A stretch of DNA of 41,350 nt. Source: a virus. Each line of letters starts with the position of its first letter. Position 1 is the first letter of the stretch. Both the position numbers and the translations under genes were made by a program. The DNA is taken from positions 1 to 41,350 of the IMG/VR virus record IMGVR_UViG_3300021138_000062. One strand, given 5' to 3'. The notes under the pieces were generated by a model, which had not been told where the DNA came from, did not search any database, and saw only the letters and a list, made by a program, of their open reading frames with translations. Positions 1,651-12,933 of the stretch are shown here, one piece after another.

Positions 1651-1699
1651 TGTTTCTCCTTTTTTGGGGGTACCCCATTTTTAAAAATTATTTGACCAG

Positions 1700-1772
1700 T
1701 GCCGGAAGCAGGAATCGAACCCACGACATTCTGATTACAAAACAGACACTCTACCTACTGAGTTATTCCGGC
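1700..1772 (-). tRNA. tRNA-Thr (anticodon TGT)
   Basis: A 73-base cloverleaf can be drawn: acceptor GCCGGAA/TTCCGGC with discriminator A, a D-arm with ACTC/GAGT, an anticodon loop TTTGTAA giving TGT, and a T-arm GTGGG/CCTGC around TTCGATT. The top pair of the anticodon stem at the loop is a T-T mismatch, and two T-arm pairs are G-T. CCA is not encoded. It should read ACA codons. Its first bases overlap the 3' end of the small gene at 1763-1909. Confidence 0.9.
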
Positions 1773-1909
1773 ATGCGTACATGGCAGCAGACTGTGTAGT
1801 GTTCTTCATTGAACTCTACATCCACAAAACAATCTTCTTCTAAATGACAGTTGATGCAGCAGTCATAGCGCCTGCCTGTGTCTAATTTGTAGGTGCTGCA
1901 ACCTTTCAC
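1763..1909 (-). CDS. Cysteine-rich small protein, 48 aa
   Basis: A 48-residue protein with a cysteine cluster (CCINCHLEEDC, then CC near the C-terminus), suggesting a metal-binding or small disulfide-type fold. The GTG start at 1909 is chosen because AAGGAG lies at ideal distance upstream; a longer frame would run into the tRNA-Asn gene. The last codons and the stop overlap the 5' end of tRNA-Thr by about ten bases. It sits between two tRNA genes in the leftward operon. Function unknown. Confidence 0.6.
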   Translation of the reverse strand: MKGCSTYKLDTGRRYDCCINCHLEEDCFVDVEFNEEHYTVCCHVRMPE

Positions 1910-1921
1910 GATTTCTCCTTG

Positions 1922-1994
1922 CTTCGGGGGCAGGACTCGAACCTGCAACCCAGTGATTAACAGTCACTTGCACTGCCAATTGTGCTACCCCGAA
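1922..1994 (-). tRNA. tRNA-Asn (anticodon GTT)
   Basis: A 73-base cloverleaf: acceptor TTCGGGG/CCCCGAA with discriminator G, anticodon stem AGTGA/TCACT with loop CTGTTAA giving GTT, and T-arm GCAGG/CCTGC with TTCGAGT. All stems pair well. CCA is not encoded. It lies six bases from the tRNA-Met gene and shares its transcript. Confidence 0.93.
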
Positions 1995-2000
1995 AAATGG

Positions 2001-2071
2001 TGGCAGGGGCGAGAATTGAACTCGCATCTCTGGCTTATGAGGCCAGTGGCGTACCGTTGGCCCACCCTGCT
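2001..2071 (-). tRNA. tRNA with anticodon CAT (Met, elongator type, or Ile2)
   Basis: A 71-base cloverleaf: acceptor AGCAGGG/CCCTGCC with an A-C mismatch at the first pair, anticodon stem CTGGC/GCCAG with loop CTCATAA giving CAT, a four-base variable loop, and T-arm GCGAG/CTCGC with TTCAATT. The three consecutive G-C pairs that mark bacterial initiator tRNAs are absent from the anticodon stem, so an elongator Met tRNA or a lysidine-modified Ile2 tRNA is more likely. It begins six bases after the stop of the gene at 2077-2358. Confidence 0.85.
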
Positions 2072-8927: not shown

Positions 8928-11306
8928 ATGGCAGATTCTTTTTCACCACCAGAACAAGTTCGGAAAAACGCTGCTCGTTCACTTGAGTTGCGCAAGGAAC
9001 ACAATCGCGGTATGACCGCCGTTGGCGTTGCTCGTGCTAGGGATTTGTCGGGTGGCAAGAATATTTCAGCCGACACCATTAAGCGCATGCACTCATACTT
9101 TGCCCGTCACGAAGTTGACAAAAAGGGTAAAGACTGGGCTAATCAATCCAATCCTTCTGCTGGCTACATTGCGTGGCTCGGTTGGGGTGGAGATGCTGGA
9201 CGCTCTTGGGTCAATGGAATTATGAAGAAGTTAGAAGCCAAAGAATCTCAGGAGACTGTTGAAAGCATGAATTCTACAAAGGCTGCAACCGTCCGTGGTA
9301 TTTTTCTTCGTCCCGGCATTTCCAAGAACCGTCGCTTGTACACCAAGGAAAACATTGGCAAGGCTGTTGAAAGGATGCAAGAGGCCCTTAAGGGTAACTC
9401 TGGCCTTCCTATCAACATGGCAACAAGTCACGGAGCCGCCTTTGATGACGATGCACTGTCCACTGTCGGTCGCGTAACTAACGTTTATCAACTGCCCGAT
9501 GGTTCGGCTGGTTTTGAAGCAGACATTGCGAATACTTCGCATGGTCGCGATATCGCCAACCTCGCAGTCGGTGGTTTTATCAAGGGCGTTTCCATTCGCG
9601 GCCAGTGGCTCGGAAATGTTGACACGGTGACTACCGATGATGGCAAAGAGGCTGTGACCGCCGATGACCTTGGCATTAACGGCATTGATTTCACTCACAG
9701 CCCCGGCGTTGACGGTGCCGAAATTATTAATGCAAGTCTTGCCGAGTCGGCAAATTCAGACACATCGTTGATTTTTGAATCTGTTTCAGAAGTGCAAGTT
9801 ATTGAATCTGCACACGACGAGCAAATTATTGCTGATGCCGTTGAGAACGCAGTTCAGTCTGCGCTTGAGGCAATCTTTGAGAAAGATGCAGCAAAGCCTT
9901 ACGGTGACGTTCAATACGCCGACCCCGGTTATCAGGCTGACAAGAAAAAGCGTTACCCGATTGACACAGCCAAACATGCTCGCGCTGCGTGGTCTTACAT
10001 CAATCAGGCAGACAACGCTGGCCTTTACACTGCGGCGCAATTGAAGCGAATCAAATCGCGAATCAAGTCTGCCGCTAAGAAATTTGGTATCAACATTGTT
10101 GGCGAGCATGATTCGCTTGCTCAAGAAATTCAAGATGTTCTTGAGGCTTATGCATCAATTACTCTTGACAATGATATGGACAGTATCCACATCAGCGGTT
10201 ATGCAATTGACCCTCACCAGTTGAAGATGGTTGCAAACCGAGTTGCGTTTGGCGCTATTGCTGCCATGCATGCAATTGACCCTGATGATGACGGAGATAT
10301 TTACCTCTCCAAGCCGGATTGGTCTCACGTTGATGACACTGGTGATGCCGGAGGAATGGGACCAGAGGATGAAGAAATGATGAGTTCGCAACCAGCCATG
10401 ACAAAAGAGTGCAGCGAATGCGGTGGCCTTGCCCCGGAAAGTTCAGCCTACTGCCATGAGTGCGGAGCGATGTTGCCGGAATCTACGGATGACAACAACA
10501 TGGAGGACGCTTGCTGCGGCGAGTGTGGCGCTTCTCCGATGGAGGGAGCAGCCCACTGCCACATGTGCGGCGCTCAACTGCCGGAAGCGGTGTCAAAAAA
10601 TGCTATTGGCTGCACAACTTGTGGCGAAATGGCTCCAAAAGATGCAATGTATTGCCCCACCTGTGGGGACCCCGTACCACAGGCCGAGTCGCAGGACACG
10701 GCCTCTAACCAGACCAAGGAGGAAGTCACAGTGAGTGACAACCAAACTGCTGCTGAGGCTTCTGCCGAAGAGTCGGTGGAGACACCTGCCATTCGTAGCA
10801 TGACCGATGCAGACCTTCAAGTGCTTGCAGGCTTCATTGTCGCTGCAAGCAAGCCAACCGAAAATGCTCCCGAAGAGGAAGAGGCCGAAGTCGCCCCTGA
10901 CGCTAAAGTTGAGGCTCCTGCCGACGCTGACGCTGAGGTTGCCGATGAGGCTCCTGCCGCTGAGGAGTCCAATATCTCTAAGGAGAATGAAGTGAGTGAG
11001 AACCTTTTCACTGCTGAACAAGTTGCCGAAATGGTGACCAAGGCTGCTACCGAAGCCGCCAAGGCCGCTGTTGAAGCCGCTAAGGCCGACGCCGTTGAGG
11101 CGTATCGTTCCGGCAGCATTACTCGTAAGGGCCTCGTTAATGAGTCAACTGGTTTCGATGCGTCGGAACTGCTTGAGTCAGATGAGATTGACCCCAATTT
11201 GCTTGCTGAGATGAACTCATCCCAGTTCCGCAAAATCCAAACCGAGATTTGGGGTTCCACCCCGTTCTTCGCAGCAAAGTTCGCTCAAGCCGACCGCGGC
11301 TACTGA
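8928..11306 (+). CDS. Composite prohead protease, zinc-ribbon and scaffold-like protein, 792 aa
   Basis: Residues 1-103 hold a helical domain with RMHSYFARHEVD and WGGDAGRSW. Residues 114-270 look like a herpesvirus-assemblin-type prohead protease, with a likely catalytic His168 (MATSHGA) and Ser222 (KGVSIRG). Residues 325-388 match DUF6582 (YGDVQYADPGY, then RYPIDTAKHARAAWSYI). Residues 495-579 hold three four-Cys zinc ribbons (Cys495/498/509/512, 530/533/544/547, 562/565/576/579). Residues 600-792 are acidic, Ala/Glu-rich and coiled-coil-like, as in scaffolds, and end in a Phe/Trp-containing segment. It would guide capsid assembly and cut the scaffold. In-frame internal starts with strong ribosome-binding sites lie at 10731 and 10992. 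The ATG at 8928 has only weak purines upstream. Confidence 0.8.
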   Translation: MADSFSPPEQVRKNAARSLELRKEHNRGMTAVGVARARDLSGGKNISADTIKRMHSYFARHEVDKKGKDWANQSNPSAGYIAWLGWGGDAGRSWVNGIMKKLEAKESQETVESMNSTKAATVRGIFLRPGISKNRRLYTKENIGKAVERMQEALKGNSGLPINMATSHGAAFDDDALSTVGRVTNVYQLPDGSAGFEADIANTSHGRDIANLAVGGFIKGVSIRGQWLGNVDTVTTDDGKEAVTADDLGINGIDFTHSPGVDGAEIINASLAESANSDTSLIFESVSEVQVIESAHDEQIIADAVENAVQSALEAIFEKDAAKPYGDVQYADPGYQADKKKRYPIDTAKHARAAWSYINQADNAGLYTAAQLKRIKSRIKSAAKKFGINIVGEHDSLAQEIQDVLEAYASITLDNDMDSIHISGYAIDPHQLKMVANRVAFGAIAAMHAIDPDDDGDIYLSKPDWSHVDDTGDAGGMGPEDEEMMSSQPAMTKECSECGGLAPESSAYCHECGAMLPESTDDNNMEDACCGECGASPMEGAAHCHMCGAQLPEAVSKNAIGCTTCGEMAPKDAMYCPTCGDPVPQAESQDTASNQTKEEVTVSDNQTAAEASAEESVETPAIRSMTDADLQVLAGFIVAASKPTENAPEEEEAEVAPDAKVEAPADADAEVADEAPAAEESNISKENEVSENLFTAEQVAEMVTKAATEAAKAAVEAAKADAVEAYRSGSITRKGLVNESTGFDASELLESDEIDPNLLAEMNSSQFRKIQTEIWGSTPFFAAKFAQADRGY
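10716..10733 (+). promoter_or_regulatory. Internal ribosome-binding site and GTG start (nested scaffold, 191 aa)
   Basis: AAGGAGG (10716-10722) lies eight bases before an in-frame GTG (10731). Translation from here would give the last 191 residues of the 792-residue protein (ends 11306), which are acidic and coiled-coil-like. The zinc ribbons end just upstream, so the start falls at a domain border. Nested scaffold genes are known in lambda (Nu3 within C). Confidence 0.6.
10980..10994 (+). promoter_or_regulatory. Second internal ribosome-binding site and GTG start (104 aa)
   Basis: AAGGAG (10980-10985) lies six bases before an in-frame GTG (10992), giving a 104-residue product ending at 11306. 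It begins VSENLFTAEQV and contains the Ala/Lys-rich coiled-coil segment and the C-terminal end. Confidence 0.45.
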
Positions 11307-11337
11307 GCCTAATCCTACCTATTAAGGAGAAATAAGA

Positions 11338-12933
11338 ATGTCTTCCGACCTTCAAGAAGCCCTTTTGACCGCTGGTGGCGCAGCCGCCCTCGTTGCTAAG
11401 CACATTGACCCTGTGCTGCTTGAGTACCAGCGTCGTTACGCGCCCCTCGTGCGCGCCCTCCCGTCCGTCAAGTGGGGTAGCACAGTTTACTACTTCAACA
11501 AGCGTACGACACTTCCTCAGGGTGGTTTCGTGACCGATGGTGGCGCTCGCCCTGTCTCGTCATCGAACTACGCGCAGGAGAACTACCAGATTCGCCTGCT
11601 TCAGAGCGTTGGCGCTGTGACTGGTTACGCTCAGGCTGTGACCGCCGACCTCATCTCGGACCTTCGTGCCCGTGAAATTGAGGGTGCTGCTCGCGGCCTG
11701 TACTGGGACGTTGAAAATGCCCTTATTTGGGGTGCAGAGGCTCCGACCAGCGCTGGTCCGTACCCACAGTTTGATGGCCTTGACGTTATCTGCTCGCAGT
11801 TCTCGTCCTCCAACACTGGTGGCCCTTCGCAGGGTATCGGTGGCGGTACAATTGACAACTACAGCGGCGCACAGGGCACATCGGGCAACGGTTGGGCTGC
11901 TCCCAACTACAACCCTTGGACCGATGGCGTTGACCAGAACTGCATTGACAACGGCGGCAACTACCTCGCCCTTGGTTCCCTCGATGCCGTGATTGACATG
12001 GTTGAGTCCAACGTGGCCGAGCCTGTCGAAAACGACGAGTGGATGTTCCTCATGTCCCCTTCGGCCACCAGCCGCCTGTCGCAGTTGCTCATCAACCAGC
12101 AGCGCTTTGTTGACAAGGTTGAGATTGCTCCGGGTCTCATTGTGCAGACCTACCGTGGCATTCCGATTGTCAAGTCCTCGTTCCTCTCGCCGCGTACCAA
12201 CGCAATGAGCGCCATCACAACTGCTACCGCCACCACTGGTGGAGTGCTTGCTGCTGGTTACTACTGGTACAAGGTTTCCGCTGTTGTGGCGCGCTTTGGT
12301 GAGACTCAAGCAACTGCTCCGACTGTTGCTGGAAACACCAACATCTACCAGCAGACCACTGGTTCGACCAGCACCATCACGGTGTCGTTCACGCCTCCGA
12401 CCGGCCCTGAAGGCGCTCAGGCTACGCACTACAAGGTGTACAAGGCTTTCACAGCCACTTCCACACCTCCTGCGGCCAACGCCAACTGGAGCCTTGCTGG
12501 TATGGTGGATGCCAACTACTTCGGTAGCGGCGGTGTTTCCTACGCCACGACTCAGTTCGTGGACAATGGAAACGCTCTGGTCGCAGGCAACGGAACCAAC
12601 GCCATCTCTTCGGCTCCGACCTCGTACTACTACGCCAACACCAACATGCACCCTCTCACCAGCAACGGTGAGCAGAGCCTGTACCTCATGTCGCGTGACC
12701 CGAACTACATCGTTCGTCCGTACGTCCGTGAGATGCAGCCGGTCAACGTGTACCCGACCACTTCCTCGCCTGACAGCCTGCCCTTCGCCTTCGTGGCGGA
12801 CACCACGCTGGCCGTTCGTGCGCCGAAGTACATCGGTCGTTTGGCTAACTTCATCGGTTCGCTGGACCGCACTGCTCGTAACGGTGTCCTCCCGACAACC
12901 ACCAGTTACACCCCTAACTACATCGTTGACTAA
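11338..12933 (+). CDS. Major capsid protein with inserted Ig/FN3-like domain, 531 aa
   Basis: Forms the capsid shell. The N-terminal part (about 25-130, with HIDPVLLEYQRRYAPLVR and a Tyr/Phe-rich E-loop-like stretch) and the C-terminal part (about 440-531, with PYVREMQPV and ADTTLAVRAPKYI) fit an HK97-fold capsid protein. Between them, about residues 290-435, lies a Thr/Ala/Gly-rich beta segment with GYYWYKVSAV and ATHYKVYKA, typical of an Ig- or fibronectin-III-like domain. The ATG has TAAGGAG upstream. Codon choice here is visibly more GC-ending than in neighbours (ctc, gcc, acc), as expected of a highly expressed gene. It follows the protease/scaffold gene and is followed by a long hairpin. 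Confidence 0.93.
   Translation: MSSDLQEALLTAGGAAALVAKHIDPVLLEYQRRYAPLVRALPSVKWGSTVYYFNKRTTLPQGGFVTDGGARPVSSSNYAQENYQIRLLQSVGAVTGYAQAVTADLISDLRAREIEGAARGLYWDVENALIWGAEAPTSAGPYPQFDGLDVICSQFSSSNTGGPSQGIGGGTIDNYSGAQGTSGNGWAAPNYNPWTDGVDQNCIDNGGNYLALGSLDAVIDMVESNVAEPVENDEWMFLMSPSATSRLSQLLINQQRFVDKVEIAPGLIVQTYRGIPIVKSSFLSPRTNAMSAITTATATTGGVLAAGYYWYKVSAVVARFGETQATAPTVAGNTNIYQQTTGSTSTITVSFTPPTGPEGAQATHYKVYKAFTATSTPPAANANWSLAGMVDANYFGSGGVSYATTQFVDNGNALVAGNGTNAISSAPTSYYYANTNMHPLTSNGEQSLYLMSRDPNYIVRPYVREMQPVNVYPTTSSPDSLPFAFVADTTLAVRAPKYIGRLANFIGSLDRTARNGVLPTTTSYTPNYIVD

Follow-up and report, generated by a model that had tools for sequence, protein, structure and literature searches.

Organization of the head-gene locus

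The window, the whole 41,350-nucleotide stretch analyzed here, is a metagenomic contig of a freshwater phage. Its head-gene region comprises terminase and portal genes, followed by a long protease gene. The major capsid gene begins 31 bases 3' of the protease gene, with nothing encoded in between. Three tRNA genes (Thr, Asn, and Met) lie on the minus strand at window positions 1699-2071. The protease gene and its downstream neighbor contain the following features.

8928-11306, plus strand: full open reading frame (ORF), 792 residues (84 kDa), open throughout, with an N-terminal module, a T4 gp21-like protease, DUF6582, zinc ribbons, and an acidic scaffold-like C-terminus
8928-9266, plus strand: N-terminal module (N-module), residues 1-113, phrog_2859, basic (pI 9.7)
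9267-9740, plus strand: protease domain, residues 114-271, T4 gp21/Peptidase S77-like by fold and Pfam matches
9882-10097, plus strand: DUF6582 domain, residues 319-390 (E 5e-21)
10401-10676, plus strand: Cys-rich zinc-ribbon block, residues 492-583, with DZR and Zn_Ribbon_1 matches
11338-12933, plus strand: next gene downstream, SU10_MCP-like major capsid protein, with the Shine-Dalgarno (SD) sequence AAGGAG at 11324-11329

A single ORF directly upstream of the capsid gene therefore carries both an N-terminal head protease and a C-terminal scaffold-like segment. Residues ~118-271 match the fold of T4 gp21 (5jbl; Foldseek E 3e-4, probability 1.00, target TM-score 0.60). The Pfam Peptidase S77 scores are 24.7 bits for the window protease and 26.4 bits for the protease of the relative L003, against a cut-off of 27, and H168 and S222 of the domain are invariant in 38 relatives. 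On the basis of its modeled fold, the enzyme is a T4 gp21-like prohead protease with putative catalytic function. Lambda C is an S49-type protease, whereas the window fold is T4 gp21/S77-like; Pfam returned no S49-family match in the ORF, and classing it as a lambda C homolog is not supported.

The N-module has a wider distribution than the rest of the gene. Among 50,697 annotated phage records, it alone had matches, and the remainder of the family had none. It is missing from the protease ORF of relatives L020-L026 and L032, and phages of Vibrio, Synechococcus, and Pseudomonas also have it. In Roseobacter phage CRP-811 (L195), it forms the N-terminus of a gene annotated as the major capsid protein. 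The same N-module is present in another family of head-maturation proteases, phrog_3270 (L156-L167, e.g. L161:3501-5024). These proteases contain an internal ATG ~220 residues from the end (275 residues in L156/L157), preceded in several members by an AGGAG-type SD and missing in L160, L165, and L168. A nested start may thus have a parallel in this family. We regard the N-module as a mobile head-gene module.

Two internal GTG codons follow strong Shine-Dalgarno sequences

The initial annotation had placed two in-frame GTG codons, each preceded by a strong ribosome-binding site, within the 792-residue ORF. Their positions and signals proved exact to the base.

10716-10722, plus strand: site 1 SD, AAGGAGG, with an 8-nt gap to the GTG
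10731-10733, plus strand: site 1 GTG start, codon 602
10980-10985, plus strand: site 2 SD, AAGGAG, with a 6-nt gap to the GTG
10992-10994, plus strand: site 2 GTG start, codon 689

Simple estimates of the anti-SD duplex energy gave -11.2 kcal/mol for site 1 and -8.2 kcal/mol for site 2, the latter equal to the major capsid gene (-8.2 kcal/mol). The ORF's own ATG at 8928 is preceded by nothing better than AAGG at a distance (-3.9 kcal/mol), in agreement with the earlier claim that the internal signals are better than that of the full gene. Local mRNA structure at site 1 ranks among the more structured parts of the gene (15th percentile).

The strong SDs are present as described, but their strength is not exceptional. 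Synonymous-codon shuffles of all genes gave 6.4 ± 2.4 in-frame internal starts at or below -8.2 kcal/mol, compared with 4 observed, and the protease gene carried two or more such starts in 41 of 200 shuffles. We therefore rejected signal strength within one genome as evidence; since shuffling matches the observed number of strong starts, the evidence offered by the initial annotation is insufficient by itself.

Start codons and Shine-Dalgarno sequences are conserved at the level of bases

We retrieved relatives through IMG/VR searches and aligned 26 distinct close ones codon by codon, the window's own sequence included; median nucleotide identity was 72%, and the set formed 12 clusters at 80% identity. 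Because the relatives are not independent, the control was drawn from the same alignment: each start column was compared with every other column encoding that amino acid, all of them having evolved along one tree. Sliding-window synonymous conservation was not discriminating, its ranking being dominated by the stretch at residues 576-630 and by the C-terminus, and for this reason we used the column-wise comparison of Val, Glu, and Gln codons. As a separate observation, synonymous conservation over residues 576-630, around site 1, is raised beyond what an SD and a start codon need; recent recombination and an RNA element are candidate causes.

GTG makes up 109 of the 1175 Val codons in this alignment (9%). 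Only residues 602 and 689, among 30 Val columns, are GTG throughout, the next best column reaching 21%. At residue 602, GTG occurs in 22/22 Val-bearing sequences and ATG in the other 4, while residue 689 is GTG in 26/26. The SD of site 2 shows the same constraint. Glu686 is the sole single-codon column (GAG) among 56 Glu columns, and the only single-codon Gln columns among 13 are residue 685, also within the site 2 SD, and residue 108, within the SD of an ATG at residue 114. Codons 685-686 always read (A/C)AG GAG (26/26), and codons 687, 688, 690, and 694 beside the signal vary freely.

ATG, GTG, or TTG occupies at least 75% of sequences in 16 columns of the alignment. A conserved SD (≤ -6) precedes just three of them, residue 602 (26/26), residue 689 (26/26), and residue 114 (21/24); at each of the other 13, an SD is found in 0-3 sequences. 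We also looked for close relatives in which the SDs were lost with the protein unchanged, the outcome named beforehand as speaking against internal starts, and found the opposite: SD and start are kept and their neighbors drift. Selection acts on the individual bases of the internal starts and their SDs across relatives, and on these alignments a chance origin of the signals is excluded for practical purposes. The proposal that internal initiation yields nested C-terminal proteins thus gains support from the conservation of both SD and start, and the gene very probably gives rise to the full fusion and two shorter co-terminal proteins.

The conserved stretch might be a peptide motif, for example a protease cleavage site of the form (K/Q)E[NT]xV(S/T)EN. 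Short acidic motifs are where prohead proteases cleave scaffolds, and the peptide around site 2 is indeed recognizably conserved. Selection is seen, however, at synonymous positions, with GAG rather than GAA and GTG rather than GTT or GTA, and at site 1 the encoded residues shift under constant bases (K/E/M/Q before GAG; V and M exchanging at the start). This explanation is already contradicted, and we give it almost no weight. Pausing is a second non-initiating explanation, in which SD-like words slow ribosomes at domain boundaries and aid folding of the fusion. The words do lie at predicted boundaries, every internal start being placed in an interdomain junction predicted to be disordered, but pausing would require no fixed ATG or GTG at the distance of a start codon and no exchange of V and M, and it is equally hard to credit.

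Site 1 is a family-wide start signal

Conservation of site 1 extends to a set of 56 distinct sequences that includes Streptomyces prophages and relatives down to 16-30% identity in the region. All 56 carry a start codon at this position (30 ATG and 26 GTG, no other codon) and an SD core 4-12 nt upstream. The peptides encoded here differ (KEEVTV, EKETEV, NKEEAM, PEGGPAM, TQEVPAV, and PKEAAM), and the SD can even be read in another codon phase, as GAA GGA GGC in L052/L089/L171 versus AAG GAG elsewhere. The SD of L094 is weak (-5.8). Judged from these sequences, conservation at site 1 acts on bases and not on residues, and the scaffold start at this site is ancestral and shared by the whole family. 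In the prophage of Streptomyces aureus NRRL B-1941 (L169/L173), the product predicted from the internal ATG has 152 residues.

The zinc-ribbon block, which the initial annotation had included in the layout, is not essential to it: some Streptomyces-prophage relatives lack the block and still have site 1. In L003, L120, and L137, an insert of ~63 residues, DUF5872-like in L003, occupies precisely the junction that precedes site 1, after the zinc ribbons. The Streptomyces-type group also has a conserved GTG ~421 residues from the end (ESVQEALV), which we did not count as a start, as CAG, GAG, and GTG are expected in high-GC genes.

Site 2 is specific to one clade

Every member of the window's clade (22 tree rows) carries site 2, which is absent from the sister groups. 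Outside the clade, it was seen only in L032, as an ATG with CAGGAGG. A single origin of site 2 was not rejected in a comparison of two origins with one (p-AU 0.41). Of the two starts named initially, it is site 2 alone that sets the layout apart.

Scaffold translation might begin at site 1 only, as it does at a single site in lambda and Mu, with site 2 conserved but silent or marginal. Such an arrangement would fit the ancestral, family-wide distribution of site 1, the restriction of site 2 to one clade, and the weaker SD of site 2, whose energy ranges from -7.4 to -8.9 across relatives. It does not fit the codon data. Nowhere else in the gene are codons as invariant as at site 2 (GTG in 26/26, GAG in 26/26, and AAG or CAG in 26/26), and a silent site would not stay invariant over the 12 clusters at 80% nucleotide identity, in all of which it is kept. 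We consider it unlikely that site 1 functions alone.

A probable third internal start lies at the junction of the N-module and the protease

The initial annotation had overlooked a third conserved internal start, at residue 114, where the N-module meets the protease domain.

9249-9255, plus strand: site 0 SD-like sequence, CAGGAGA
9267-9269, plus strand: site 0 internal ATG, residue 114, start of a predicted 679-residue protease-scaffold protein (~72 kDa) without the N-module

The conserved SD here is of the CAGGAG type: Gln108 is CAG in 18/18 sequences, and codon 109 is GAG in 21/24 relatives. In L020, L025, and L026, whose protease ORF has no N-module, this ATG serves as the sole start of the gene and is preceded by an SD of its own. 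Spacing in the window is long (12 nt from GGAG), longer than in most relatives, which makes site 0 less certain in the window itself. A third shorter co-terminal protein is probably made from the same gene, as the alignment suggests. Where the module is present, the first start of the gene is weak or lacks an SD in all relatives (no stronger than -4.8), and the layout inferred from the alignments comprises one weak start and three stronger internal starts.

A further strong in-frame SD with an ATG (AAGGAGGAGCACGAG-ATG in L017) occurs near residue 392, just after DUF6582, in L017/L031. It is confined to this pair and not conserved, and we rejected it as a candidate.

Predicted products of the internal starts

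Initiation at sites 1 and 2 would yield two short proteins that share the C-terminus of the fusion.

10731-11306, plus strand: predicted 191-residue scaffold-like product (20.1 kDa, pI 4.05) from site 1
10992-11306, plus strand: predicted 104-residue scaffold core (11.2 kDa), with a long helix and C-terminal helices, from site 2

The C-terminal 191 residues are acidic and alanine-rich, with 41 D+E versus 14 K+R. An AlphaFold (AF2) model of the 191-residue product, of low mean confidence (pLDDT 62), shows disorder at residues 45-88 and a long helix at residues 95-127. Site 2 corresponds to residue 88 in this model, the end of the acidic disordered linker, and the 104-residue product would consist of the helical core alone, without that linker. 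A fold search of the model, at its confidence of only 62, found no match in the PDB. Searches of the scaffold part against PHROGs, Pfam, and NCBIfam gave nothing useful, an Oxidored_FMN Pfam match being discarded as far below the cut-off. The position, composition, and helical C-terminus of the segment, together with the analogy to known systems, suggest that it acts as a scaffold.

Proposed model for nested translation of the protease-scaffold gene

We consider it highly likely, on the comparative evidence, that the gene encodes a head-maturation protease-scaffold fusion read from several in-frame starts on one mRNA. The 792-residue form, weakly initiated, and probably the 679-residue form would bring the protease into the prohead via the shared C-terminal segment. 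GTG 10731 would supply the bulk of the free scaffold, 191 residues consisting of the acidic linker and the helical core. In the window's clade, GTG 10992 would add the 104-residue core. All products could co-assemble because the C-terminal helices are common to all, and the major capsid protein is their presumed contact. Product ratios would follow from how strong the individual ribosome-binding sites are. On the simplest reading, that of lambda and Mu, a few protease-bearing copies would assemble beneath the capsid shell together with many copies of free scaffold, to be cleared later by the protease. We infer the production of the short proteins, their role as scaffold, and their removal by the protease. 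The fuller version, to which we lean with less assurance, holds that four co-terminal products (792, 679, 191, and 104 residues, starting at residues 1, 114, 602, and 689) are made at set ratios, with the 104-residue core as a second scaffold species that tunes head assembly.

Alternatively, the short forms could arise from internal promoters or processed mRNAs, with the SDs lying near the 5' ends of shorter messages. Cytomegalovirus UL80 offers a precedent, its nested protease/scaffold products being made from 3'-coterminal transcripts (Welch 1991, cited in PMC9732275). A scan of the coding strand for promoters of the sigma-70 type only found none upstream of sites 1 or 2, the number of its hits being at chance level, and we regard separate messages as improbable.

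Scaffolds are usually among the abundant assembly proteins. Gene callers report one 792-residue protein here, leaving the presumed scaffold invisible in annotation, and this is probably true of the whole family. Hidden starts of this kind can be recognized from sequence alone with the codon-invariance test. With scaffolds of two sizes, the influence of scaffold composition on head assembly would become testable.

Comparison with known systems

The window protease shares the fold of T4 gp21, but T4 has no fused acidic scaffold, its scaffold core proteins being encoded by separate genes. SpaO of the type III secretion sorting platform has one internal start, and both the protein and the process are unrelated to the window gene. 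SpaO and SpaO-short, a protein and its C-terminal ~100 residues, are two isoforms of one gene (PMC13059759).

Another parallel is lambda C/Nu3, in which the C-terminal part of the protease gene, read in frame, encodes the free scaffold (Shaw & Murialdo 1980, cited in PMC8508860). Both are protease-scaffold fusions upstream of head genes, but lambda has one internal start and the window gene two or three, and the N-module, DUF6582, and zinc ribbons of the window gene are not described for lambda C. In the Mu-like I/Z arrangement, gene 27 of Pseudomonas phage PaMx73 contains an in-frame scaffold start inside the protease gene, predicted at a Val codon following an SD with 9-nt spacing (PMC4378225). 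This start, itself only predicted, is the single internal one, and PaMx73 and Mu I/Z differ from the window gene in length and domain make-up. Our search, confined to open-access papers, found no phage with serial internal starts, and an earlier case elsewhere is possible.

Several in-frame, 3'-coterminal protease-scaffold products are known from cytomegalovirus UL80 (Welch et al. 1991, cited in PMC9732275 and PMC4032930). This eukaryotic virus uses four nested transcripts, whereas the window gene has serial SD starts. The principle is known from lambda C/Nu3 and Mu I/Z; the serial arrangement appears to be a new variation on it, and the four-product reading would be a translational counterpart of UL80.
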